The notes under the pieces are model-generated. The model saw nothing but the letters and a program-made list of their open reading frames with translations, ran no database searches and was not told the origin of the DNA. Position numbers and translations under genes: made by a program. Positions 2,478 through 16,406 of a DNA stretch of 16,406 bases are shown here, one piece after another. Source of the stretch: Candidatus Altarchaeales archaeon WOR_SM1_86-2 (GTDB lineage: Archaea > Altiarchaeota > Altiarchaeia > IMC4 > MCBC01). Numbering within the stretch: position 1 is the stretch's first letter; every line of letters begins with the position of its first letter. Where the stretch lies: the NCBI GenBank assembly GCA_001723855.1, contig MCBC01000141.1:1-16406 (forward strand). The letters are read 5' to 3'.

Positions 2478-3002
2478 ATGAATACAAAAAGACTGCTCAG
2501 GGCATATAAACCAACACTTTCACAGGCCATGGGCGGGGATCACATAAAAGTTCTGCAGAAACTTTCCAGGCCAATGTACGACCATGACATATCCTCTTCC
2601 ATGAAAGTAAAAACAACCACGGTGAGGAAACTGTTGAATGAACTGTATGACTTCGGCCTGGTGGAGTATGAAAGACTGAGGGATAAAAAAACAGGGTGGT
2701 ACACCTACCTCTGGAGCAGGCGCGATGACAGGGTTGCGGGCTACATAAAGGATTCCCTTGAGAAAAGCCTGGGGGGTCTGGAGAACAGGCTTCTGCAGGA
2801 GCGCGATAATATAATGTTTGCGTGCGAATGCCAAAACGGCGGAGAGAACGGACACGTGACTTTCGGTCAGGCGATGGAATACGACTTCATATGCCCCGTA
2901 TGCAATACATCCTTCAGGCAATTCGATAACTCTGCCGTCATCTTGAAATTGGAGTCTGGCATCCTGGAATTAAGGAGAGGTCTTAAAGGGATTGGAGGGT
3001 AG
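2478..3002 (+). CDS. tfe: Transcription factor E, alpha subunit (TFIIE-alpha homologue)
   Basis: 174 residues, the normal length for archaeal TFE. This basal factor binds the TBP-TFB-RNA polymerase complex and helps open and stabilise the promoter bubble. The N-terminal winged helix (about 12-80) contains DISSSMKVKTTTVRKLLNEL and the family signature GWYTYLW (73-79). A charged helical linker (about 85-112) follows, then a zinc ribbon with C116 and C118 paired with C139 and C142, around the conserved TFGQAMEYDFICPVC segment. The first pair is CxC as read here, whereas many homologues have CxxC. It is a single gene between membrane-protein genes, flanked by two copies of the 56-bp repeat. Whether it is the only copy in the genome or a paralogue cannot be told from this window. 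Confidence 0.93.
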   Translation: MNTKRLLRAYKPTLSQAMGGDHIKVLQKLSRPMYDHDISSSMKVKTTTVRKLLNELYDFGLVEYERLRDKKTGWYTYLWSRRDDRVAGYIKDSLEKSLGGLENRLLQERDNIMFACECQNGGENGHVTFGQAMEYDFICPVCNTSFRQFDNSAVILKLESGILELRRGLKGIGG

Positions 3003-3016
3003 TTTGAAACCAATAT

Positions 3017-3072
3017 AACTACGAACCGATTCGTAGCTATGCGTTTTTATGTTTGTAATCCATAGTGTATAA
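3017..3072 (+). repeat. 56-bp intergenic repeat, copy 2 (hairpin plus TATA-like end)
   Basis: Second copy of the element at 2401-2456, 14 nt after the TFE stop. The stem CTACGAA / TTCGTAG (3019-3025 and 3030-3036) is unchanged; only loop bases differ (ACCA in copy 1, CCGA here), and four differences lie in the 3' part. Differences confined to the loop argue that the dyad is under selection. It again ends with GTGTATAA (3065-3072), here about 90 nt before the next ATG, so a transcript from this box would have a leader of about 60 nt. Confidence 0.75.
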
Positions 3073-3158: not shown

Positions 3159-5429
3159 ATGAAAACGATTAAATTGGTTGGGACAGGAATCTTATTTATA
3201 TTACTGGCAGCAAATGTAATGGCAGACGGCATAATAATCCCCGAGCCCCCGGCGCCGGAGATCCATGTTGAGCTTCTGGAGATCAAATATCATCACGTAA
3301 ACGTAACGATAAGTGATCAATATACCGAAACATCCATTGACCAGGTCTTTCACAACCCGAATCACAGGGACCTGGAGGGCACGTACCTATTTCCTTTACC
3401 AATAGGGGCGTCCATCTCGGACTTTTCAATGTTCGTGGATAACGAGGAGATCAAGGGGGAGATCCTGGACAAAGACGATGCTAAAGAGATCTACGAGAGC
3501 ATAGTGAGGAGGATGAAGGATCCCGCGCTTCTGGAATACGTGGACAGGAACACATTTAAGGCAAGGGTCTACCCGATACCGGCCGGGGGGGACAAGAGGA
3601 TAAAGATGCGGTACGAGGAGGTTTTAACATGCGATAACGGCGTGTGCAGGTATGTTTACCCTCTTGACACGGAAAGATTCTCGTCAAAGAACCTTGAAAG
3701 CGTTCTCGTCTCCGTGAAGATCCACTCAGAAAACCCGATAAAAAGCATATACTCGCCAACCCATAAGATCGAGGTGAAAAAAGAGGACGACTATAACGCT
3801 GTCGTAACCTACGAGGAAAATAATGTCAAGCCGGACAAGGATTTTGAGTTATACTACACCCTCTCGGACAAGGATTTCGGGGTCAGCCTGTTAACGCATG
3901 AGGACTATTTTATGCTCCTGGTTGCGCCAAAGGTTGAGCTCTCGGAAGATGAAATCTCAAGAAAAGACATCATTTTTGTGTTTGATAAGTCCGGGAGCAT
4001 GTCCGGGGAAAAGATCGAGCAGGCACGGAACGCTCTTTTATTCTGTTTGAATAATCTAAACAAAGAGGACCGGTTCAACATAATCCCGTTCTCAACGGAC
4101 GTGGATTCATTTAAAGATGAGCTGTCGGGGGCGAATTCGCAGAACATAGACGAGGCATTGGACTTCGTCGGGGATATGGGCGCCAGCGGCGGAACAAACA
4201 TAGACGGCGCGTTAACCCTGGCGTTAAACCAGTTCTCGGGCAACAACAGGGCAAAGATGATAATATTCCTGACGGACGGTCTGCCGACGGTGGGGGAAAC
4301 AGACGTTGAGAACATACTGGCGAATGTTAAATCAGCAAACGAACAAAATATCCGGATTTTCGTTTTTGGCGTCGGATACGACGTCAACACAAAACTTCTT
4401 GATAAGATATCCTCGGAAAACCAGGGCGTTTCGGAATACGTTAAGCCGGGAGAGGACATCGAGGTTAAGGTAGGCAATTTCTACACGAAGGTCGCAAGTC
4501 CGGTGCTGTCGGATATCAGCATGGACTTTGGGGACATCAAGGTCGAGAAAATGTATCCCGGGGATCTCCCGGATTTATTTAAGGGCAGCCAGTTGATTGT
4601 GCTTGGACGGTACTCCGGGGAGGGCAATGCGGCGATAACATTAACCGGGTTTGTAAACGATAGGAAGCAGAAATATGTTTATGAGGGAACCTTCGCCGAC
4701 ACACCAAAAAACTCTTTTATCCCGAGATTGTGGGCGCAAAAAAGAATCGCGTATCTCCTGGATGAGATACGGCTTCACGGCGAAAACGAAGAGCTGGTTG
4801 ACGAGATAGTTAAGTTAAGCAAGCAGTACGGCATAATAACCCCGTACACTTCGTTTCTTGTGGCGCCGGAGGCTAAGAAAAGCGATTACAGGGGTTGGGA
4901 CGCCAATGTTGTATCCCGCGAGGAAACGGAATCTGCACAAAAGGCGATGGACTACGCATTCGCTCCCTCGAGCGGGGCGGGGGCTGTTAACGCGACCGTG
5001 GGCATACAAAAACTTAAGGAGGAGACGGTTGAGTACAGTCACGGGGAAATAAAATCAGTTGGCTCAAAGACATTTATCTACAGGGGCGGCGTATGGGTTG
5101 ACACGACCTATTCGGAACAGGAGATGGTTGACGTGAAATACGAGAGCGGATTGTATTTCGAGACCCTCTACAACAACACGGGATTGGGGGCGTATTTCTC
5201 GATCGGCAAGAGCGTGATCGTCTGTGATGAGGATACATGCATCAAGATCAGCGAAGATACTGGAGGAACATCCGGCACGGTGCCGCAGATCAATGTGACC
5301 GGAGGGGATGATGTTGACGGGGGAGGCGGGGATGCCGCCGGAAAGGGAATCAACTGGGCTGTAGCCGTAATCTGCCTGGTAATTCTCCTTTTCATCGCCC
5401 TTATTATAATCCTTTTGAAAAAAAAATGA
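3159..5429 (+). CDS. Secreted, membrane-anchored VIT + von Willebrand A domain protein
   Basis: 756 residues. A signal peptide (cleavage probably after about residue 22, VMA/DG) is followed by a VIT domain (about 28-160) with hallmarks LEGTYLFPLP, AKEIYESIV, DPALLEYV and FKARVYPIPAGGDKRIKMRY. A VWA domain (about 268-450) has a complete metal-ion-dependent adhesion site: D276, S278 and S280 in DKSGS, T346 in GGTN, and D373 in LTDG. The conserved segment KQYGIITPYTSFLVAPE follows, as in inter-alpha-trypsin inhibitor heavy chains and their prokaryotic relatives. A Gly/Asp-rich stretch leads to a C-terminal helix (about 732-753) ending KKK, which anchors it with the domains outside. No LPxTG-type or archaeosortase motif is seen. 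It is probably a metal-dependent adhesion or ligand-binding surface protein. The next gene starts 3 nt after the stop, so the two are almost certainly cotranscribed. Confidence 0.92.
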   Translation: MKTIKLVGTGILFILLAANVMADGIIIPEPPAPEIHVELLEIKYHHVNVTISDQYTETSIDQVFHNPNHRDLEGTYLFPLPIGASISDFSMFVDNEEIKGEILDKDDAKEIYESIVRRMKDPALLEYVDRNTFKARVYPIPAGGDKRIKMRYEEVLTCDNGVCRYVYPLDTERFSSKNLESVLVSVKIHSENPIKSIYSPTHKIEVKKEDDYNAVVTYEENNVKPDKDFELYYTLSDKDFGVSLLTHEDYFMLLVAPKVELSEDEISRKDIIFVFDKSGSMSGEKIEQARNALLFCLNNLNKEDRFNIIPFSTDVDSFKDELSGANSQNIDEALDFVGDMGASGGTNIDGALTLALNQFSGNNRAKMIIFLTDGLPTVGETDVENILANVKSANEQNIRIFVFGVGYDVNTKLLDKISSENQGVSEYVKPGEDIEVKVGNFYTKVASPVLSDISMDFGDIKVEKMYPGDLPDLFKGSQLIVLGRYSGEGNAAITLTGFVNDRKQKYVYEGTFADTPKNSFIPRLWAQKRIAYLLDEIRLHGENEELVDEIVKLSKQYGIITPYTSFLVAPEAKKSDYRGWDANVVSREETESAQKAMDYAFAPSSGAGAVNATVGIQKLKEETVEYSHGEIKSVGSKTFIYRGGVWVDTTYSEQEMVDVKYESGLYFETLYNNTGLGAYFSIGKSVIVCDEDTCIKISEDTGGTSGTVPQINVTGGDDVDGGGGDAAGKGINWAVAVICLVILLFIALIIILLKKK

Positions 5430-5432
5430 AAA

Positions 5433-7982
5433 ATGAGAAAGAAAAAAATAGAAATAGGCGGGGGAGGAGATAAAAAACTCATAGTCCTGCCGCTGGATGA
5501 GAACTCAAAGGAGATCAGCCAGATACTGGCGAACGACACCGCCAGAAAAATACTGGAAACCCTGGCTGAAAAGCCCCTCTCCGCCACCGAGATCGCGGAC
5601 AGCCTTGATTTAGCACTCACCACTGTCCAGTATGACATTAAAAAACTTCAAGACGCGGGGCTGATAAGGGTCGTGGATACCAGGGCAAGCGAGAAATTAA
5701 AGGAGGTTAAGGTATACGGTCCCGAGGAGAAGTTCATAGTCATCGCCCCGAAAAGCGTAAAGAGGAGCGACGCCCTGGCGATGCTTAAGAAAATCCTGCC
5801 GCTTATTTTTGTCGCAGCAGTATGTGTTTTCGGGGCATATCACTTCATGCAGCTCCCTGGAGGATCTCCAGGCGAACAAGAAGGATGGGACGGGATCGGA
5901 GACGCGGACATAAAGAAATTCTCGTCTCAACAGGAACTTAACGCGTTCATAAAATACTCCGCGGAAAGTGGGGAATATTATGCCTATCGTGGAGTGTTCG
6001 AAGGGTTTGCTGCCGAGGATACCGATGCGCTGTCTGTCCAGGCTCCGGGGGCAGAAAAATCTTTTGCCACAACCGGCGGCGATGAGGGAGCGGGTGCGGA
6101 AGATTTCTCAACAACCAACATCCAGGTGGAAGGCGTTGACGAAGCGGATATAGTAAAGAATGACGGCAAATACATTTACGTCATATCCGGGAAGAAGGTT
6201 GTGATAATAGATGCATATCCTGCGGAAAACGCGGAGATTTTATCCGAAATCGAATTTGATGAGCAGCCGTCGGAGATTTTCATAAATGGCGACAAACTCG
6301 TGGTTTTCACGCAGGAATATGATCACGGGGCGTATCGGGATTATTACTACGGCTCGAGCACAAAAACAAATGTGCTCGTCTATGACCTCTCTGACCGTGA
6401 AGTCCCTGTATTGGAGTGGGAGATTTCGGCTGACGGCAACTACTTTGACTCCCGCATGATCGGGGACTACGTGTATGTGATAGTCAACGAGCCAATCTAT
6501 TACTACACCTGCCCGGTTTATCGCGGGGAGGAAGTGGATTTGAAATGTATCGCCCATGACATAAAGGTTCCTGAGACCACGGTAAACGACAAAAAAATTG
6601 ATGAGACCTTCCCGGACATCTACTACTGGGATATTTACGATTACTCGTACAGGTTTACGACCATCCTGGCGGTTAACGTGCGGGATGAAAAAATAAACAA
6701 GAGATTGTTTGTGATGGGCACGTCCCAGGATATGTTCGTTTCGCTCGAGAACATTTACCTCACAAGAACCAAGTGGATGAGCCAGCGTGAACTTCAGGAG
6801 CGGGTTTATGACGAAGTGGTGATACCAAGCATGCCCGGGGAAAAGCAGGATGAGATAAAGGAGATCGAGGATTCAGGCAAGAGCTTCTATGTCAAGCGGT
6901 ATGAAAGGGCGCTGGCGGTTAAAAATTACCTCGCGGACCTTAATGACAGCGAGACGGGGGAGCTTCAGGATAAAATAAACAAGAAAACCCGGGACCTGCA
7001 AAAGGAATTTGAAAAAAATCAGGAGCAGACGGTTATAAACAAGATCGCGATAAAAGACGGAACGATAGTTCCAACAGCATCAGGCAGCGTGCCGGGGACG
7101 GTTCTCAACCAGTTTTCAATGGACGAATATAAAGATAATTTCAGGATAGCGACAACCACCAGGCGAACGGGCTGGTTTGGCGACAGTTCAAGGAACAATG
7201 TTTATGTGCTGGATGAAGACATGGAGATTACAGGTAAACTCGAGGATCTGGCGCCAGGCGAAAGTATCTACTCTGCGCGCTTCATGGGCGAAAGATGCTA
7301 TCTTGTCACTTTCAGGAAGATTGATCCGTTATTTGTAATAGACCTTTCTGACCCGAAAAATCCAGAGGTCCTGGGCAAACTGAAGATCCCCGGCTACTCG
7401 GATTACCTGCACCCTTACGACGAAAACCACCTCATAGGGATCGGTAAGGAAACGGTTGAATCAAAAGTGGGTGATTTCTCATGGTACCAGGGCGTTAAGA
7501 TCTCGCTGTTTGATGTGAGCGACGTCTCAAAGCCAAAGGAGATTGCAAAATATGAAATCGGCGATAGAGGAACGGACTCGTATGCGCTGAGTGACCATAA
7601 AGCATTCTTGTTCAGCAAATCAAAGGACCTGCTTGTTATCCCCATCCTGCTTGCGGAAATCGATGAGGAAAAATACCCGGGGGGAGTCAGCCCAAGCCAG
7701 CACGGCGACTATGTCTGGCAGGGGGCTTATGTTTTCAAACTCACGGTCGATGACGGCTTCGAACTGAAAGGCAGGGTAACACATTCGGATGCTTACGAGT
7801 TCATCAAGAGCGGCTGGTATTACCATGACTCTCCGACTTCGGTCAAGCGCTCCCTCTACATGGACGATGTGCTCTACACGATCTCGAATAAGAAGGTGAA
7901 GATGAACGACCTGGATGACCTGGATGAGATCAATGAGGTTGAACTGCCGTATGAAGGAAATGGAGAATATTATTATGGATAA
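5433..7982 (+). CDS. Winged helix - transmembrane helix - beta-propeller fusion protein
   Basis: 849 residues. The N-terminal ArsR-like winged helix (about 30-105) includes ILANDTARKILETLAEKP, SATEIADSLDLALTTVQYDI and a wing ending VKVYGPEEKFIVIAPK. One hydrophobic helix (about 121-139) follows. The rest is a secreted-type propeller domain of the Beta_propel family (PF09826/COG4880), recognised by TTNIQVEGVDEADIVKNDGK (about 228-246), IDLSDPKNPEVLGKLKIPGY, YLHPYDENHLIGIGKE and VPGTVLNQFSMDEY. A charged helical stretch interrupts the propeller (about residues 460-530), as in archaeal relatives. Topology places the DNA-binding domain inside and the propeller outside, as in ToxR-like one-component sensors, although direct regulation is inference. 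The start 3 nt after the VIT/VWA stop implies an operon with that gene; the propeller may report on it or bind it. Confidence 0.9.
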   Translation: MRKKKIEIGGGGDKKLIVLPLDENSKEISQILANDTARKILETLAEKPLSATEIADSLDLALTTVQYDIKKLQDAGLIRVVDTRASEKLKEVKVYGPEEKFIVIAPKSVKRSDALAMLKKILPLIFVAAVCVFGAYHFMQLPGGSPGEQEGWDGIGDADIKKFSSQQELNAFIKYSAESGEYYAYRGVFEGFAAEDTDALSVQAPGAEKSFATTGGDEGAGAEDFSTTNIQVEGVDEADIVKNDGKYIYVISGKKVVIIDAYPAENAEILSEIEFDEQPSEIFINGDKLVVFTQEYDHGAYRDYYYGSSTKTNVLVYDLSDREVPVLEWEISADGNYFDSRMIGDYVYVIVNEPIYYYTCPVYRGEEVDLKCIAHDIKVPETTVNDKKIDETFPDIYYWDIYDYSYRFTTILAVNVRDEKINKRLFVMGTSQDMFVSLENIYLTRTKWMSQRELQERVYDEVVIPSMPGEKQDEIKEIEDSGKSFYVKRYERALAVKNYLADLNDSETGELQDKINKKTRDLQKEFEKNQEQTVINKIAIKDGTIVPTASGSVPGTVLNQFSMDEYKDNFRIATTTRRTGWFGDSSRNNVYVLDEDMEITGKLEDLAPGESIYSARFMGERCYLVTFRKIDPLFVIDLSDPKNPEVLGKLKIPGYSDYLHPYDENHLIGIGKETVESKVGDFSWYQGVKISLFDVSDVSKPKEIAKYEIGDRGTDSYALSDHKAFLFSKSKDLLVIPILLAEIDEEKYPGGVSPSQHGDYVWQGAYVFKLTVDDGFELKGRVTHSDAYEFIKSGWYYHDSPTSVKRSLYMDDVLYTISNKKVKMNDLDDLDEINEVELPYEGNGEYYYG

Positions 7983-8061: not shown

Positions 8062-9414
8062 ATGAAAATTAATAGAACAACGCTTGAAAACGCTCTCGCG
8101 ATCCAGAATTCTTGGTGGAAAACAAAACAGGTCAAGAAAGAAAAGCTTGGTGAGTTCCAGCGCGAGATGTTATTGAAAATTTATGAAAAACTTGATGAAA
8201 ATAATGTTGTCTCCATAATCGGTCCAAGAAGAACCGGGAAAACAGTACTGCTTCACCAGATAATCCAGAAACTTCTTGATGATGGCATTAATGAAAAGCG
8301 GATAGTTTATCTGCCACTTGACAACCCGAATGTGCGCGGAGATAACCTCCTTGATGAACTTATGGATTTTATTACAAGTATGGTATATGAGCCAGCAGAT
8401 GATCTAACAGAACCCGTTTATATATTTCTTGATGAGGCCCATAAGCTTGAAACATGGAGCCAGCAGATAAAATACTGGCATGATCTCGGATTAAAAATAA
8501 GTTTTATCATCTCCGGTTCATCTGCTCTGAGGATACTCAAGGGGTCTGGGGAATCATTGCTTGGCAGAATTGATCATAATATACTCCTTCCATTGAGTTT
8601 CAGGGAATTCCTGAGTGTTCGCTACGGTTTGAATGTTGAAGCACACGAACTTGATATCGGGAAAATAAAAAAGAATCACTACGACCTTATTCCAAATCAA
8701 CAGAAGATTAAAATTGCATTAAAGGACTATCTCCATAGAGGAGGATATCCGGCACTTGTTAACACAAGTATAGACAAAACATTTCAGATACTCCTTGAGT
8801 ACAAGGATCTGTCAATCCAGCGAGATATATTTGAAATAGAGGAGATAAGGAACACAAAAACGCTGAACGAATTAATCTATTTACTCGCAAGTTTGGTTGG
8901 AAACCGGCTCAGTTATAACAAACTTGGGAGTGCTATTTTATCGCGGGTTAACACAGTAAAGAGGTATCTTGCGATGCTTGAGGACATATATCTCGTCAAG
9001 GAATCATTGGTGTATAAAAAACCATATTCGGCAGTCAGGCAGGAACGAAAGGTGTTTTTTATAGACACCGGAATGGTTAATGCATTGAATATGAACTACG
9101 AACTAAAAGATATGCCTGCATTAGTTGAAAATGCAGTGGCATCTATGGTTTATAGAAAAAACCTAAAATCAGAGATAAACCCTCTGCAGCATTACTGGGT
9201 TGAAACAAAGGAGGTTGATGTTGTCGCAAATATTAGGGGTAGTGTGATACCAATAGAGGTTAAGTATCGCGAAACGCCGTCAGACATCGGAGGTTTGCTC
9301 AGATTTATGGAAAAATTTAATGCCGAGAATGGAATTGTAGTAACAAAGAATTTATTCAAAGAAGACGGCGATATCTTGTATGTTCCAGCATGGTTGTTCA
9401 TGCTGTGTGTTTGA
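8062..9414 (+). CDS. AAA-family ATPase with DUF4143 C-terminal domain
   Basis: 450 residues, usual for this family of archaeal and bacterial ATPases. The N-terminal P-loop domain has Walker A GPRRTGKT (54-61), Walker B VYIFLDEAH with D124 and E125, and a sensor-like SFIISGSSA (about 147-155). The LPLSFREFL segment follows, typical of AAA_14/DUF4143 proteins. A winged-helix-like stretch (about 266-312) leads to a C-terminal nuclease-like fold with VENAV (E356), EVDVVA (D386) and IEVKYRE (E399, K401), the PD-(D/E)xK pattern of DUF4143; catalysis is not established. Cellular roles are mostly unknown. Composition looks more AT-rich than in the neighbouring VIT and propeller genes, and the protein is cytoplasmic in an otherwise envelope-linked locus, so it may be a later arrival. 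It has its own promoter-like region and probably shares a transcript with the lipoprotein gene 12 nt downstream. Confidence 0.93.
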   Translation: MKINRTTLENALAIQNSWWKTKQVKKEKLGEFQREMLLKIYEKLDENNVVSIIGPRRTGKTVLLHQIIQKLLDDGINEKRIVYLPLDNPNVRGDNLLDELMDFITSMVYEPADDLTEPVYIFLDEAHKLETWSQQIKYWHDLGLKISFIISGSSALRILKGSGESLLGRIDHNILLPLSFREFLSVRYGLNVEAHELDIGKIKKNHYDLIPNQQKIKIALKDYLHRGGYPALVNTSIDKTFQILLEYKDLSIQRDIFEIEEIRNTKTLNELIYLLASLVGNRLSYNKLGSAILSRVNTVKRYLAMLEDIYLVKESLVYKKPYSAVRQERKVFFIDTGMVNALNMNYELKDMPALVENAVASMVYRKNLKSEINPLQHYWVETKEVDVVANIRGSVIPIEVKYRETPSDIGGLLRFMEKFNAENGIVVTKNLFKEDGDILYVPAWLFMLCV

Positions 9415-9426
9415 AAAATAAGAAAG

Positions 9427-9798
9427 ATGGAACCTAGAGTTGGAATCCGGATTGGAATATTGGTTACTGGCGCGGTTTTAATCAGCGGATGCGTTGAAGA
9501 AAAACCAGTGGAAAAGCCACCGATAAAATGCGTGATAGAAAATTGCCATGGTCTTAATATCAGTTGCGGCCCCAATGTTCCGGAAGTTTGCACAGAGATC
9601 TACATGCTCGGGGACGGATGTCGAGAATATGCAAGTTGCAGGATCATTGACGGAAAGTGTCAATTAACAAAAGAGCCGGAGTTTGATGAATGCAAATCCT
9701 GTGTTGAAAAATGCCTAGAGGATTTCAAGGATGATGCCACCGAAGTTTTTCAATGTGAAAGTGAATGCAGGGAAAAATTAAAAGAGGAAGTTGCATAA
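9427..9798 (+). CDS. Cysteine-rich lipoprotein, eight-cysteine-cluster-like with a twin Cx3C tail
   Basis: 123 residues. A short hydrophobic signal ends in the lipobox LISGC (C22), so the mature protein should be lipid-anchored outside the cell. Twelve more cysteines follow. The first eight (35, 40, 47, 55, 65, 71, 78, 89) sit in a pattern resembling the eight-cysteine-cluster domain found in some bacterial and archaeal lipoproteins (CGP, then CREYASC, then DGKC); I make that match from memory. The last five form C89-C92-C96 and C110-C114, so C92-x3-C96 and C110-x3-C114 make a twin Cx3C pair 13 residues apart, the pattern of a disulfide-stapled helical hairpin. The start is 12 nt after the ATPase stop, too close for a separate promoter. 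It precedes the macroglobulin gene. Specific function unknown. Confidence 0.82.
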   Translation: MEPRVGIRIGILVTGAVLISGCVEEKPVEKPPIKCVIENCHGLNISCGPNVPEVCTEIYMLGDGCREYASCRIIDGKCQLTKEPEFDECKSCVEKCLEDFKDDATEVFQCESECREKLKEEVA

Positions 9799-9844: not shown

Positions 9845-12800
9845 ATGGAAACAAAAAATATGTTAAAGCTGGCGATACCGGTTATTTTACTGCTGACAAC
9901 CGTGCAGGCGTCTGCAGAGACAAAGGTAATCGCGCTATTTGAGCAGGAGTACTATGAACCCGGGAGCGGGGTGGACATCACGTTCATATACTACGATGAA
10001 GACGGGTTGAGTGACGGGGTGCTTACAACGGTTATCATCAATGATCCCCGGGGCGAGGTTATGGAAAAAATGCAGTTTAAGCCATCTGGTTTCATGTATA
10101 CTCACACTTACACGATACCGGAGGGTGAACCCCCTAAATTTGATGAGGTGTGGTTCGGCAGATGGAGCATCGAGGCGTATGCGGAAGATTTTAAATTCAG
10201 TGGAAATTTTGAGGTGCGAAGGTCTGTGGGGAAAAGATATTACGAGGGGCTGTACGCCATAGAATACGGATCGAGAGACGACGACCTCCAGAGCATCGTA
10301 GTATCCCCAACGAGAAATATCTTTGTTGAGAATGAGGGTTTTGAACTCCCGATAACGATGATCAACGGTACAAAGCCGTATCATGGAGTTGCAATGCTGC
10401 GTTTGTACAAATCAGGAAATTTAATTGAGGATGAGATTAAATTCATCGATAAATCAGATAACGGAAAGTGGAATCCTGAATTAAATCTTGAAAAGGGCGT
10501 ATATCTTGCGGTTGTCGATACCTTCGCAAATGATAAAAGGCAGACCCAGATGAAGGCAATTTCAATTGCTCCCGCGGTTGTTCTTATGCCCTCGAACAGG
10601 GTGGACAGGGAGTACCATGTTATCTTTCTTGATCCCGTGACATACTTACCTGTTGAGGGGGCGTTGGTCACGATTCAAACAAAAGATAGTGAGGAAATCC
10701 AGCGGGAACTTTTGAATAAAATAAAAGAAGAAGAGAATACTCTCCTGCAGGGTGATATATCAGAACCTGAAATTAATGAGATATCTGAGGAAATCAAGTC
10801 ATTAAATCAAAAATTAGAGGAAATCAGAAGAAGTGAAGTGCAGACAAAGAAGACAGATGAATTCGGGGACTGTGCGTTCCCGGAAAATACGATCCCACAG
10901 GGCACGTTTACAATTAAGTACATGCTGCCGAATGATGACGAGGGCGAGATCCTGGCATACGGTGCAAAAGAATATGAATATAACTGGCTTGACATAACCC
11001 TGCAGGTTGATCGACCAATATACGCCCCGGGGCAGGCCGTAAACTTCAGGGGCTACACATGGGGCATATCATCGGAGGTTAAACCGGTGAACACCTCCCT
11101 TGTCGTAAAACTGAGGGACCCGGAAGGCTTCATCCTGCTTGAACAGAAACTTCACTCAAATAACCACGGGATATTCAATGGAAGCATCACTCTGCCGATG
11201 AACATCGACCCCGGGGACTATACCGTGGAGTGCCGAAAAGAAGAGTACAGTGACTGGCACTACGGCTACGGCTCTCAGAGAATAACGGTTAAGCACTTTG
11301 AAAGAGAGCAATTGATCACCGGGATCTTCACGTCAGATAGATCCTATGATCACGGGGACATGGTTTCCGGGAATGTCTCTGTCAGGTACTATTTCGGAAA
11401 ACCCTCCGCCGGCTCAGAGGTTTTACTGGACGTCTGGTGGGCATCTACATCACCTGGAGGTTATTATGTGCCCTACTACGGCTATGAGGGATACGATGAA
11501 TACCTGGGCACGAGAATCGGCGCGTACCCGCAATTTGGAGACAATTACTATCCGGAGCATAATCTCGTGAGACTGGAAAGATATAAAATTTTGAATCTGA
11601 CAACCGATAAAGACGGCATAGCGAGTTTCAATTTCTCTCTGGGGTATCTGAGAGGAACACACATCATAGCATACGCCAACATAACAGACCCCGCCGGAAG
11701 GAAGGAGACCATATCAACAAACGTGAGACTTGCGCCCTCTCTAACGGTCGATTTTGATGCAAACTATTCAACCGACGAAATTTTGAATATCAAAGGGAAC
11801 ATAACCGCATTCAAGGAAGATATTATTGAAGAATTAAGCGCGGAAATAGTTGGGTTACTGCCTGCCGGGTATAACAATGAGGAAAAGATAAAGAATATAG
11901 GTCTTGAATTGGGAGATGATGGAAAATTTGCTGCAAATACAGAAATACAGAAAAGCACGGCGCTTAAATACACCCATCTCAGGATTAAGATAACCGCGGT
12001 TGATAGATATGAAAGAAAGTGGACAGCATACAGGGATGCGGATACGGGAAAATATACTGTCAAATTTGATGTTCGAAGGGACGGGGATTCTGTTGTGGGG
12101 GATATTGAGTTTATTGATAACCTGGAGGGTAAGGTTGTGCCGCCAAAGGATTTCTCATGGGGTTTTTCAGGACCCGATGATCGCTCGGCGGTTTATCACA
12201 ATATAAACTACCGGGATCATAAATTTTCCGGCAGGGATACAATAAAGATCCCGGTAAACCACTATCCTTCAGGTTCTTATAAATTTACGATAAATTCAGG
12301 GAATTATAATTTCAGAAAAACCGTTACAAGAGACGTGAATATTGGCAGGGCGCATAATGTTTCCGTTTATGCGGAAAAAGAGGAGATAGAGGCGGGCGAG
12401 ACCGCAAAATTCAATTATAGATTTGACGGTTTTGACCGGGACGTGTATGTTGTCTTACAGGAATACGACCGCAGCGGGTTGATGGATACACACGTAACCA
12501 GGGTCTCTCCGGGTAAGGGATACACTCACTTAATTGAAACAACAGAAGACATGGTGGGCAGTGTCTCACTGACCGCATTCACACTTGCTGAAAACGGCAT
12601 ATGTTACGGGGGCGGAAATCACACGGAAATTAAGGTAAAGGGGTTAAAAACAAGAATCTATTTTGAAAATAGGACATATAAGCCAGGAGAGAAACTGGAG
12701 TATAAGATAGAGGTCACTGATAAAGAAGGGAGTGCAGTACAAAATGCGGCTCTTGGTCTGGTAATCGCGGATAAAAGCGTTCTTGATATTAAAGAAATGT

Positions 12801-15800
12801 ATGAGGGCACACCTTTTGTACAAAATTATTGGAGCGTTTATGAATATCCTTTTGTGTATGCATCCTCAAATATAGAAGCATGGAGCCTGGACGGTCTGTG
12901 GAGATATGATCTGGGGTTAAGCAAATATAAGCCGATCGTTTATTCATCCATGAGTTGTGTTCCCTGGGGATATGCATACTATTATGGAGGGGGTGGAGGA
13001 TATGCTGCCCCTCCAATGGGGGTTGCTAAAATGGCGGCTGGAGAGGGCGATACAATGATTTATGATATGGAAGAATCCGCGCTTGCGGCTGGAGGGGCCA
13101 TCTCGCTAACAGGGGGGGAGGTTGAGGATATTCTTGCGGGGACCCAGACAAGGACATTGTTCCCGGAAACGGCACTCTGGGAACCTTTCGTGGTAACGGA
13201 TGAGGACGGCGTGTACACAGGGGAGCTGACGCTTCCGGATACATTAACGACATGGAATTTCAGGGTATATGCTTCAACAAAAGACTGCGAGTACGCGGAG
13301 AATGAAACCGCATTCGTGACCCGGAAGGACTTCTTTATAGAACCGTATATACCCGCGTACATCACACAGGGCGATAATACCTCGCTCTCTCTTACCGCAC
13401 ACAACTACCTGAATCGTTCCCTGATGACAATCATAGGTATAAAACAGGAGGACTGGTTTGACCTCTATACACCTAACGCGTATGAGTTTGAAATTATGCC
13501 CGATGTTCCGTTTGGTTATATGTGGCACCTGAGGGCAAGAGACCCTTTCTATAATAATGTGACTTTTTTTGCGGTCGGGGGTGATGAGAAAGAAAATATG
13601 AGTGACGCGGTAACTAGGGATATATGGGTCAGGCCAAACGGCGTTGAGTGGGACGAAAAATTCTCGGGTGAGACAGAAGAGGAGTCCGTAACATACCACC
13701 TTTTCATCCCTGATGAAGCATACGATATCTCAATTCGCGGATATGCTAACTTTGGCTCTGAATCCCTTCCAATATACAGGAATTATGCATACCGCCCCTA
13801 TTCTTCTTATCCTAATACCGAGCAAACGGTGTCGGAGATCATACCGTATGTGCTTCGATATGAGTATATGGAAAAACTGAAAGTTAATTATTGGAACTGT
13901 AAACCGTGTATTGAACAGCCCATGATGCGGCTTCTCTTCCTTCGCCACGAAGACGGCGGATGGGGCTGGTGGAAGAAAGGCCCGTCCACGCCCTATATGA
14001 CCTCTTATGCCCTGCGGGGACTTTATACCGCGAAAAAAACGGTTTATGTGAATGATGCGTATATAAGCGATGCCGTCACATGGTTGGAAAAATCGCAGAA
14101 CGAGGACGGATCATGGAACGCAACCGACTGGCTTACGGGCAATGATCCCGGCATGACTGCACTGGTTGCGAGAAACATGCAGATCGCAGGTCATGGGGAA
14201 AGCGGTGCCGTAAAGAAAGCAATAGATTATTTAAATAAAAAATGGGGCGATGGTGAGATAAAGGATCCGTACACGATTGCTGTTTATGCTTTAATCCTGG
14301 AAGATTCCGGAGACGATGAAGACCTTGAAAGCGTCCTTGGTGCACTAAAGGATATGAAGAAGGAGGATGAAGAGCAAGAGTATGTGTACTGGAGCAGGGG
14401 ATACAGTTTAGGGGGTCCTGATGAAACAACTGCTCTTGCCGCCCTTGCACTGCTTAAAAGTGATGATGAGGAAGATATAAAGATCGCAAAGAAATCACTT
14501 AAATGGTTAAGGGAAGACAATCCATGGGAATTTACGACGCCGGTTGATATGATCTCGGCATTGGATGCGCATCTTGCGCTTATTGAGATAGAGCCGCCGG
14601 TTATTCCAGACATGAACATAGACCTGTACGTGAACGACAAAAAAGTAGACAGCGTGCACCTTTTTGGTATCCGGGGGGACGCAGATAAGATGAGGCTGAC
14701 AGATTATCTTCATAAAGGAGAAAACACGATAAAGATAGTCAGAAGCGGGGAAGGTAAGTTGATGTATGATCTGTGGTTCGAGGCTTATCTCGGGGGTAAA
14801 ATCAAGGGCGAGATTTCACAGCAGCCGGAAATTAACGGCATAATCCCGGTTATGATAAGATTAACGCCCGAAACAGATGCCGCAGTCCCTGCGAGGATAA
14901 AAATTGAACTTCCTCGAAGTGAGGGCTATGTGATCGTACCCTCGCCTGGAGTATACATTCCATACTTGAATGAAACACAGGAGTTTATCGTTTATTACGC
15001 TCCGACAACATCAGACCCGGGCGGTTTTTCTGCAAACGCCGGATGCGAGTACCAGTTAAGCTATAATAATAAGATAGAAGGCCTGCAGTTTGATACGTTC
15101 AATGTGAGCATTGATGCGGCGGGAGGCATGGAAATTACCGATGACATGCTCTTTGTAAAACGCGTTGACATGGAAGGTAACGTTGAAAACGGCTCACTTG
15201 TGGAATTATCCGTAACGAATAACGGCAGGGAAAGGGATGTCGAGATCCATGATTTCATACCCCCGGGGCTGAGAGCCGGGGAGTACGGTGATGCGGAATA
15301 TAAAGACAACAAACTCGTCTGGAAGTTAAGAATACGCCAGGGAGAGGAGGTTATGAAGAGATACATCGTCAAGGGCGGTGCCGGCAGATACGACCTTGGC
15401 AGGGGTATTGTAACGGCAGATAAAACGTATGTCCTGTCTAATGCCGCAGAAACAACGCTGTATTCGGATGATATTGTTGTTACAAGGGAATTTTCAGATA
15501 ATATTATCGCACAGGGGGACTCAACAGAGGTGGATATCGCAGTCACGTCAAAGTCCCGTCACTACTTTACGGTAATTGAAGAGCCCATACCCCCTGGCTT
15601 CACGATCGTCAACTACCAAAGCCCGAACGGCACATTAAATGTGATTGTGCAAGGCGATAAAATCGTATGGTTCCTAAACGGTCTCAGCGATAAAAGATTG
15701 TCATATACCCTGAAAGCCGACGCTGAGGGAAAAGTCCACGCCCCTCCAACCGTGGTTTATCCAATGTACCAGCCAGAGTACAAAGCATATTCAAGGGAAG

Positions 15801-16406
15801 AAATATTAAGTGTTGGAAAGATCTCGGCAAGTATTGATTTTTCAGAAATTGAAAATAAATTTAAAATTAATGTTAAAAATAAAGGGGAAAGGATAGATGC
15901 CGAGATTACCGTGAGGATATTCCTGGATACCAGGGTAATAAACGATGACGTGATAAAGAAAACGATAGATACGGGGATAACAACATTTGAAGTCTCGCCT
16001 TCTGGGGGGTGGGATAGAATAGAGGCATACATTAACGCTAAAAACTATACCATGGGCCCCTTTATTATGGAATCCGAAGCAAAAAGTCAGGAAACGCCAA
16101 CATCAAGGGATACCGAGGAGGTGCATGATATGGGAATGCCTTATGAACTCTTTATATATATAGTTGGCAGTGTGGCTGTCTTATTACTTGCCGCTGTGTT
16201 CGTCATTTTCCTATCCCGGAGGAAAGGTAAGGGAAGCGGAAGATTAATCATTGCCTTTGCTGTGATGTCTGCGGTGCTGTTAGTTGCCGGATACGGAACA
16301 CTTCAATGCACCTCGACACCGGCCACTGTGCCGGATGCTGCCCAGGATGCTCTGCAGCAGGCGGATATACATGAAAAACCACTGTTTATTTATCCGCAGG
16401 TGGGCG
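9845..16406 (+). CDS. Alpha-2-macroglobulin-like giant surface protein with intact thioester motif (3' end outside window)
   Basis: The frame stays open for 2187 codons to the window edge. A signal peptide (about 1-24, cleavage after ASA) is followed by beta-sandwich modules, including an MG2-type segment near 383 (LDITLQVDRPIYAPGQAVNF). ALGLVIADKSVL (969-980) marks the MG6-like part. A Gly/Ala-rich stretch (about 1040-1100) lies where the bait region sits in macroglobulins. The A2M domain begins FPETALWEP (1106) with LPDTLTTWNFRVYA (about 1130). The thioester motif CIEQ is complete (C1355, Q1358), and an alpha-toroid thioester domain (to about 1580) follows with GGWGWW and NEDGSW repeats. 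DUF11-like modules occupy about 1762-1850 and 1883-1960 (FTVIEEPIPPGF), and a further module about 2000-2075. Two membrane helices (about 2102-2123 and 2134-2151) follow. Macroglobulins trap proteases or bind targets covalently. There is a predicted coiled coil at about 283-335. No pbpC-like partner is seen. Confidence 0.93.
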   Translation, partial: METKNMLKLAIPVILLLTTVQASAETKVIALFEQEYYEPGSGVDITFIYYDEDGLSDGVLTTVIINDPRGEVMEKMQFKPSGFMYTHTYTIPEGEPPKFDEVWFGRWSIEAYAEDFKFSGNFEVRRSVGKRYYEGLYAIEYGSRDDDLQSIVVSPTRNIFVENEGFELPITMINGTKPYHGVAMLRLYKSGNLIEDEIKFIDKSDNGKWNPELNLEKGVYLAVVDTFANDKRQTQMKAISIAPAVVLMPSNRVDREYHVIFLDPVTYLPVEGALVTIQTKDSEEIQRELLNKIKEEENTLLQGDISEPEINEISEEIKSLNQKLEEIRRSEVQTKKTDEFGDCAFPENTIPQGTFTIKYMLPNDDEGEILAYGAKEYEYNWLDITLQVDRPIYAPGQAVNFRGYTWGISSEVKPVNTSLVVKLRDPEGFILLEQKLHSNNHGIFNGSITLPMNIDPGDYTVECRKEEYSDWHYGYGSQRITVKHFEREQLITGIFTSDRSYDHGDMVSGNVSVRYYFGKPSAGSEVLLDVWWASTSPGGYYVPYYGYEGYDEYLGTRIGAYPQFGDNYYPEHNLVRLERYKILNLTTDKDGIASFNFSLGYLRGTHIIAYANITDPAGRKETISTNVRLAPSLTVDFDANYSTDEILNIKGNITAFKEDIIEELSAEIVGLLPAGYNNEEKIKNIGLELGDDGKFAANTEIQKSTALKYTHLRIKITAVDRYERKWTAYRDADTGKYTVKFDVRRDGDSVVGDIEFIDNLEGKVVPPKDFSWGFSGPDDRSAVYHNINYRDHKFSGRDTIKIPVNHYPSGSYKFTINSGNYNFRKTVTRDVNIGRAHNVSVYAEKEEIEAGETAKFNYRFDGFDRDVYVVLQEYDRSGLMDTHVTRVSPGKGYTHLIETTEDMVGSVSLTAFTLAENGICYGGGNHTEIKVKGLKTRIYFENRTYKPGEKLEYKIEVTDKEGSAVQNAALGLVIADKSVLDIKEMYEGTPFVQNYWSVYEYPFVYASSNIEAWSLDGLWRYDLGLSKYKPIVYSSMSCVPWGYAYYYGGGGGYAAPPMGVAKMAAGEGDTMIYDMEESALAAGGAISLTGGEVEDILAGTQTRTLFPETALWEPFVVTDEDGVYTGELTLPDTLTTWNFRVYASTKDCEYAENETAFVTRKDFFIEPYIPAYITQGDNTSLSLTAHNYLNRSLMTIIGIKQEDWFDLYTPNAYEFEIMPDVPFGYMWHLRARDPFYNNVTFFAVGGDEKENMSDAVTRDIWVRPNGVEWDEKFSGETEEESVTYHLFIPDEAYDISIRGYANFGSESLPIYRNYAYRPYSSYPNTEQTVSEIIPYVLRYEYMEKLKVNYWNCKPCIEQPMMRLLFLRHEDGGWGWWKKGPSTPYMTSYALRGLYTAKKTVYVNDAYISDAVTWLEKSQNEDGSWNATDWLTGNDPGMTALVARNMQIAGHGESGAVKKAIDYLNKKWGDGEIKDPYTIAVYALILEDSGDDEDLESVLGALKDMKKEDEEQEYVYWSRGYSLGGPDETTALAALALLKSDDEEDIKIAKKSLKWLREDNPWEFTTPVDMISALDAHLALIEIEPPVIPDMNIDLYVNDKKVDSVHLFGIRGDADKMRLTDYLHKGENTIKIVRSGEGKLMYDLWFEAYLGGKIKGEISQQPEINGIIPVMIRLTPETDAAVPARIKIELPRSEGYVIVPSPGVYIPYLNETQEFIVYYAPTTSDPGGFSANAGCEYQLSYNNKIEGLQFDTFNVSIDAAGGMEITDDMLFVKRVDMEGNVENGSLVELSVTNNGRERDVEIHDFIPPGLRAGEYGDAEYKDNKLVWKLRIRQGEEVMKRYIVKGGAGRYDLGRGIVTADKTYVLSNAAETTLYSDDIVVTREFSDNIIAQGDSTEVDIAVTSKSRHYFTVIEEPIPPGFTIVNYQSPNGTLNVIVQGDKIVWFLNGLSDKRLSYTLKADAEGKVHAPPTVVYPMYQPEYKAYSREEILSVGKISASIDFSEIENKFKINVKNKGERIDAEITVRIFLDTRVINDDVIKKTIDTGITTFEVSPSGGWDRIEAYINAKNYTMGPFIMESEAKSQETPTSRDTEEVHDMGMPYELFIYIVGSVAVLLLAAVFVIFLSRRKGKGSGRLIIAFAVMSAVLLVAGYGTLQCTSTPATVPDAAQDALQQADIHEKPLFIYPQVG

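Follow-up and report, generated by a model that had tools for sequence, protein, structure and literature searches.

The 16,406-nucleotide stretch analysed here (the window; contig MCBC01000141.1 of Candidatus Altarchaeales archaeon WOR_SM1_86-2) encodes at its 3′ end a large protein of the alpha-2-macroglobulin (A2M) superfamily from which the reactive thioester bond appears to be missing. The gene is a single open frame of 2187 codons that is still open where the window ends; judged from a near-identical protein, P0001, the complete product would be about 2,500 residues long. By sequence, the domain order is MG2, bait-region domain, A2M, thioester domain (TED) and MG10. We propose, with a probability of about one half, that the protein is held on the archaeal cell surface and traps proteases non-covalently. 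Its features are as follows, in residue numbers of the window frame (P0001 starts at Met6 of this frame); all domain matches pass the curated Pfam cut-offs.

9845..16405, + strand: macroglobulin-family open frame, residues 1–2187, cut by the window end
9860..9916, + strand: hydrophobic N-terminal segment, probable signal peptide, residues 6–24 (hydropathy of P0001; P0001 start)
10997..11245, + strand: MG2, residues 385–467 (PF01835, E 2.9e-21)
12365..12787, + strand: A2M_BRD bait-region domain, residues 841–981 (PF07703, E 4.6e-08)
12788..13147, + strand: candidate bait loop, residues 982–1101 (putative role, from position)
13169..13426, + strand: A2M domain, residues 1109–1194 (PF00207, E 3.8e-17)
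13814..14524, + strand: TED (TED_complement), residues 1324–1560 (PF07678, E 4.5e-22; structure model and PDB matches)
13814..13825, + strand: thioester-site remnant N1324-T-E-Q1327, with Asn against the Cys of relatives
13898..13918, + strand: look-alike C1352-K-P-C1355-I-E-Q1358, one helix further on; P0002 lacks it
15503..15778, + strand: bMG10, residues 1887–1978 (PF17973, E 1.2e-10)
16130..16312, + strand: probable transmembrane hairpin, about residues 2096–2127 and 2129–2156 (hydropathy of P0001 and P0002)

Membership of the superfamily, together with the signal peptide, the MG2 domain and the A2M domain bearing FPETALWEP (at residue 1106), had been recognized in a preliminary description of this DNA and is borne out by the presence of MG2, A2M and TED in that order. 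The modelled fold of the TED-bearing half resembles solved superfamily members, with C5 structures among its closest structural matches; by sequence, the solved relatives are A2M, A2ML1, TEP1 and complement C3, C4 and C5.

The thioester-containing subset (Type I, TEP, C3/C4 and the archaeal CxEQ set) has Cys-x-Glu-Gln where the canonical TED helix begins; the window protein has N1324-T-E-Q in that column. In an A2M–TED alignment of the window protein and 80 homologs (81 rows, the distant relative P0002 included; 110 homologs were found, 81 with a matched span above 350 residues, and the near-copy P0001 was excluded), N1324 occupies the column of the thioester Cys, which holds Cys in 63 of the 81 rows. 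Cys, Glu and Gln occur jointly at the site in 57 rows, and in the six Cys rows without Glu-Gln (P0036, P0040, P0045, P0051, P0061 and P0110) the local alignment is doubtful. A second alignment has Cys opposite residue 1324 in 33 of 38 rows, and phmmer alignments to solved A2Ms set PYGCGEQ opposite PYSSYPNTEQ of the window protein. The site of P0002 reads SYPTTEVT, with Thr for the canonical Cys and the Gln also gone, and CxEQ is absent from the whole of that protein; the same metagenome-assembled genome (MAG) bin provides a control in two further A2M genes, which carry GCGEQT and GCFEQT. A quick midpoint-rooted tree groups the window protein with P0002 on one long branch, separate from the remaining Cys-less rows; the label ‘no Cys’, given to 18 rows (three of them, P0054, P0067 and P0077, with gaps at the Cys column), changes seven times.

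The preliminary description had read a thioester in CIEQ at residues 1355–1358 and proposed that the protein traps external proteases or attaches covalently to other cells or the S-layer. The motif is real and is flanked by prolines within the first two turns of a modelled helix; when P0001 was shuffled 5000 times, 1.48% of the shuffles contained CxEQ somewhere and 0.16% contained it within the TED stretch. It lies, however, 31 residues C-terminal of the aligned thioester site, which the model places one helix beyond the canonical helix; the window protein is alone among the 81 rows in having Cys at 1352 or 1355; P0002 lacks such a motif; and C1352-K-P-C1355 could equally form a disulphide. 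The alignment column, the sole Cys row and the position in the wrong helix led us to reject CIEQ as the thioester, and it is, by sequence, an uncommon off-site coincidence. Covalent attachment through this motif, whether to a protease, another cell or the S-layer, is very unlikely, the canonical Cys being replaced in both distinct family members. Apposition of C1355 and Q1358, suggested earlier as the deciding structural observation, is uninformative because any helix brings residues i and i+3 near each other; it is the alignment column that discriminates. Very unlikely, too, is a moved thioester, in which the canonical Cys became Asn and a new proline-flanked C-I-E-Q one helix later works in this lineage only; the superfamily offers no precedent for such re-siting that we know of.

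A whole-length homolog search covering ~5.8 billion proteins returned two family members beyond the window: P0001 (2498 residues, 99% identical to the window protein) and P0002 (2498 residues, 39% identity across 91%). The matches that follow start from E 4.8e-39 and span 3–33% of the query. With P0002 as query no third member was found among 7987 candidates scored; this search overlooked P0001 itself and is therefore of limited sensitivity. A query of 191 well conserved P0001 residues retrieved P0001 and P0002 and no other protein, and a peptide-pattern scan of a genome collection gave 115 matches with a single true relative, the P0002 gene. Two peptide patterns found no macroglobulin relatives in viral contigs, PADLOC had no match for the macroglobulin, and Rfam gave none at gathering cut-offs. 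The window protein and P0001 differ internally at 14 positions, 12 of them within residues 2066–2187 and two within residues 6–2065; the cluster (window 16040–16405, at the contig end) may reflect either strain recombination or an assembly junction.

P0001 and P0002 are 41% identical overall. Identity is higher in the A2M domain (57%), the TED (54%) and the segment joining the two (53%); it drops to 38% in the bait-region domain, to 31% in the candidate bait loop, where there are 33 gap columns, and to 19% in the segment ahead of the hairpin. In P0002 the bMG10 match is just under the cut-off (24.7 against 26.2). The high identity of the TED suggests that this domain has been retained without its reactive bond. 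Gene decay, in which the thioester was lost since the protein no longer works, would account for the missing catalytic Cys in both distinct members; full-length 2498-residue frames in both, at these levels of identity, make it the least credible explanation considered here.

Two hydrophobic stretches separated by a short loop lie at about residues 2090–2150 of P0001 and P0002 by hydropathy. The loop is basic in the window protein and is therefore probably inside the cell, with both flanking parts outside; surface exposure, as first proposed, is probable. These are the two helices formerly placed at the C-terminus: the helices stand, and their terminal position is rejected, as P0001 extends ~350 residues further, nearly all past the window, and ends, like P0002, at 2498. 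This C-terminal part (P0001 2151–2498) is 40% identical to that of P0002, rising to 52–55% across 2341–2460, and its model is poor (mean predicted local distance difference test score, pLDDT, 45.9) and consists mainly of strands.

In the proposed trap, the protein would be exported and anchored in the membrane through its hairpin; the large MG/TED part would face outward, and so would the C-terminal part. A foreign protease would cleave the predicted bait region, the variable loop next to the A2M_BRD match, which is in part Gly/Ala/Tyr/Met-rich and lies directly N-terminal of the well conserved FPET strand. Cleavage would change the shape of the macroglobulin, and this shape, not a covalent bond, would retain the protease, with the TED serving as a binding or packing domain that carries no covalent warhead. 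Such retention has been reported for MagD of Pseudomonas aeruginosa, a Type II bacterial A2M lacking CXEQ: once its bait has been cut, MagD keeps hold of TEV protease without a covalent link (PMC5764988). It also gives protection from some type VI secretion effectors that target the cell wall, by a mechanism described as not established (PMC12663445).

Several points weigh against a non-covalent trap. The monomeric inhibitors A2ML1 and rat A1I3 require the thioester, which tetramers do not (PMC9156758), and a thioester-dead mutant of Salmonella A2M failed to trap its protease (PMC5764988); in these sources the proteins reported to trap without a thioester are tetramers and MagD, and the single-chain inhibitors examined to date are thioester-dependent. 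No MagD-type partner operon was seen upstream, no mag protein having been used as query. The predicted topology is drawn from hydropathy only, the candidate bait loop from position and variability only, and the distinct family members known are two only. Model confidence is low just before the TED helix, N1324 being the last residue of this segment (pLDDT 58–59), and the rarity of CxEQ in TED shuffles leaves a little room for a moved thioester.

The thioester dependence of monomers, taken with Type II trapping, leads us to rank the non-covalent trap first and a C5-like surface scaffold or receptor second. In the latter, a tentative alternative with appreciably less than an even chance, the TED and MG domains would make non-covalent contacts (in adhesion, or with the S-layer or partner proteins) and no protease would be trapped. 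A TED well conserved despite the loss of its warhead would fit this role, as would the C5 structures among the closest matches and the conservation of the part past the hairpin; retention of the bait-region domain and of a variable loop before FPET argues against it. P0001 has 25 NxS/T sequons where 13.8 are expected, a number reached by 2 of 1000 shuffles and in keeping with a surface scaffold, whereas P0002 has no excess (13 against 11.4).

Among known systems, Type I bacterial A2Ms (E. coli, Salmonella) share domain kinship with the window protein, including bMG10. The window protein differs in lacking CxEQ at the site, in having no pbpC in view and in carrying a hydrophobic hairpin in place of the lipid anchor of Type I proteins. 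MagD and the window protein are alike in having a TED without the thioester motif, the feature that marks Type II, and MagD is exported and membrane-associated, as proposed here for the window protein (PMC5764988). MagD belongs to a six-gene mag operon and is recruited to the inner membrane via MagB (PMC5764988), whereas the window protein brings a hydrophobic hairpin of its own and extends into an additional C-terminal part. Complement C5 likewise lacks the thioester (PMC9156758); C3, C4 and C5 contain anaphylatoxin and C345C domains, for which Pfam gave no match in the 2187 residues of the window protein (E 0.01) or the 2498 residues of P0001 and P0002 (E 1). Archaeal A2M homologs have been published by Makarova et al. 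2021 (27 proteins in 24 genomes), some of whose genes are near other putative surface-protein genes; they share with the window protein an archaeal host, a signal peptide and MG and TED domains, and are listed for an intact CxEQ, which the window protein lacks at its site (PMC8416519). No published report of a thioester-less archaeal A2M turned up, with no search aimed at that phrase alone.

Upstream of the macroglobulin gene, the window genes taken as real are all on the + strand, these among them:

2478–3002, + strand: TFE-like gene (Pfam TFIIE_alpha, E 5.6e-17, above cut-off)
3159–5429, + strand: VIT–VWA protein with a hydrophobic C-terminus (VIT E 8.4e-31, VWA E 4.9e-23)
5433–7982, + strand: fusion of a winged helix–turn–helix (HTH), a hydrophobic helix and a secreted-type β-propeller (PF09826, E 2.6e-167)
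8062–9414, + strand: AAA_14/DUF4143 ATPase (Pfam; PADLOC candidate family PDC-S01, E 1.6e-59)
9427–9798, + strand: small Cys-rich lipoprotein-like open reading frame (ORF); lipobox-like ISGC close to the start, no Pfam match

The lipoprotein-like ORF stops 46 bases before the macroglobulin frame and has the ATPase on its other side. Together with the VIT–VWA and β-propeller proteins further up, this same-strand neighbour would suit a surface scaffold; the neighbourhood is, however, not common to the P0002 contig, the survey of gene neighbours suggested earlier having matched the macroglobulin only (tblastn of nine window proteins against the 127-kb contig, E 1e-3) and none of the other eight ORFs. 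The absence of pbpC remarked on at first holds for the eight other window ORFs scanned, with only the upstream side visible, and none was found among 14 scanned ORFs of the P0002 contig (some short or partial ORFs lay outside the scan). This is unsurprising beside a thioester-less protein, because the A2Ms that have pbpC as a neighbour, in a number of bacteria, are those of Type I, which bear the thioester (PMC5764988).

The TFE-like gene supports the archaeal context given earlier, with matches to NCBIfam TFE models (E 6e-38 and 2.9e-31) that lie below the curated cut-offs and 26–35% identity to matches in 10 Undinarchaeota genomes. Flanking it are two 58-base direct repeats, 90% identical (2399–2456 and 3015–3072), each sitting just past a stop codon and starting with the perfect palindrome CTACGAA-N4-TTCGTAG (two found, 0.04 expected); they look like terminator-like or regulatory hairpins, and no exact copy of the 32-base repeat core occurs in viral contigs. 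Four genes upstream of the macroglobulin is the VIT–VWA gene; inter-alpha-trypsin inhibitor heavy chains combine the same two domains. The HTH–propeller fusion is possibly a one-component transmembrane sensor-regulator; in the 10 Undinarchaeota genomes it has a long propeller match in one (43%) and weak HTH-only matches in two more.

The P0002 gene lies on a 127-kb contig (L001) of a MAG labelled Undinarchaeales, a label that we do not trust as the MAG is mixed: it measures 3.8 Mb against 0.6–1.1 Mb in nine others of its phylum, contains four TFE matches and, alone among the 10 genomes of that phylum, has the macroglobulin family. The contig itself looks archaeal from its gene content, with a TIGR01177-type methyltransferase (below cut-off) and a geranylgeranyl reductase (above a broad-family cut-off). 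Directly 3′ of the P0002 macroglobulin gene, in opposite orientation, is a TnpB/IS605 OrfB-like gene (L001 17487–18650).

A CxEQ string within a TED is no proof of a thioester. The TED ranks with the best-conserved regions of this 2,500-residue protein with the bond apparently gone, and its role would thus be separable from the thioester. The lineage carrying such a protein is very rare and appears archaeal, and archaeal macroglobulins would gain a thioester-less form with a membrane hairpin. Whether MagD-like protease trapping without a covalent bond occurs on archaeal cells is now a testable question.
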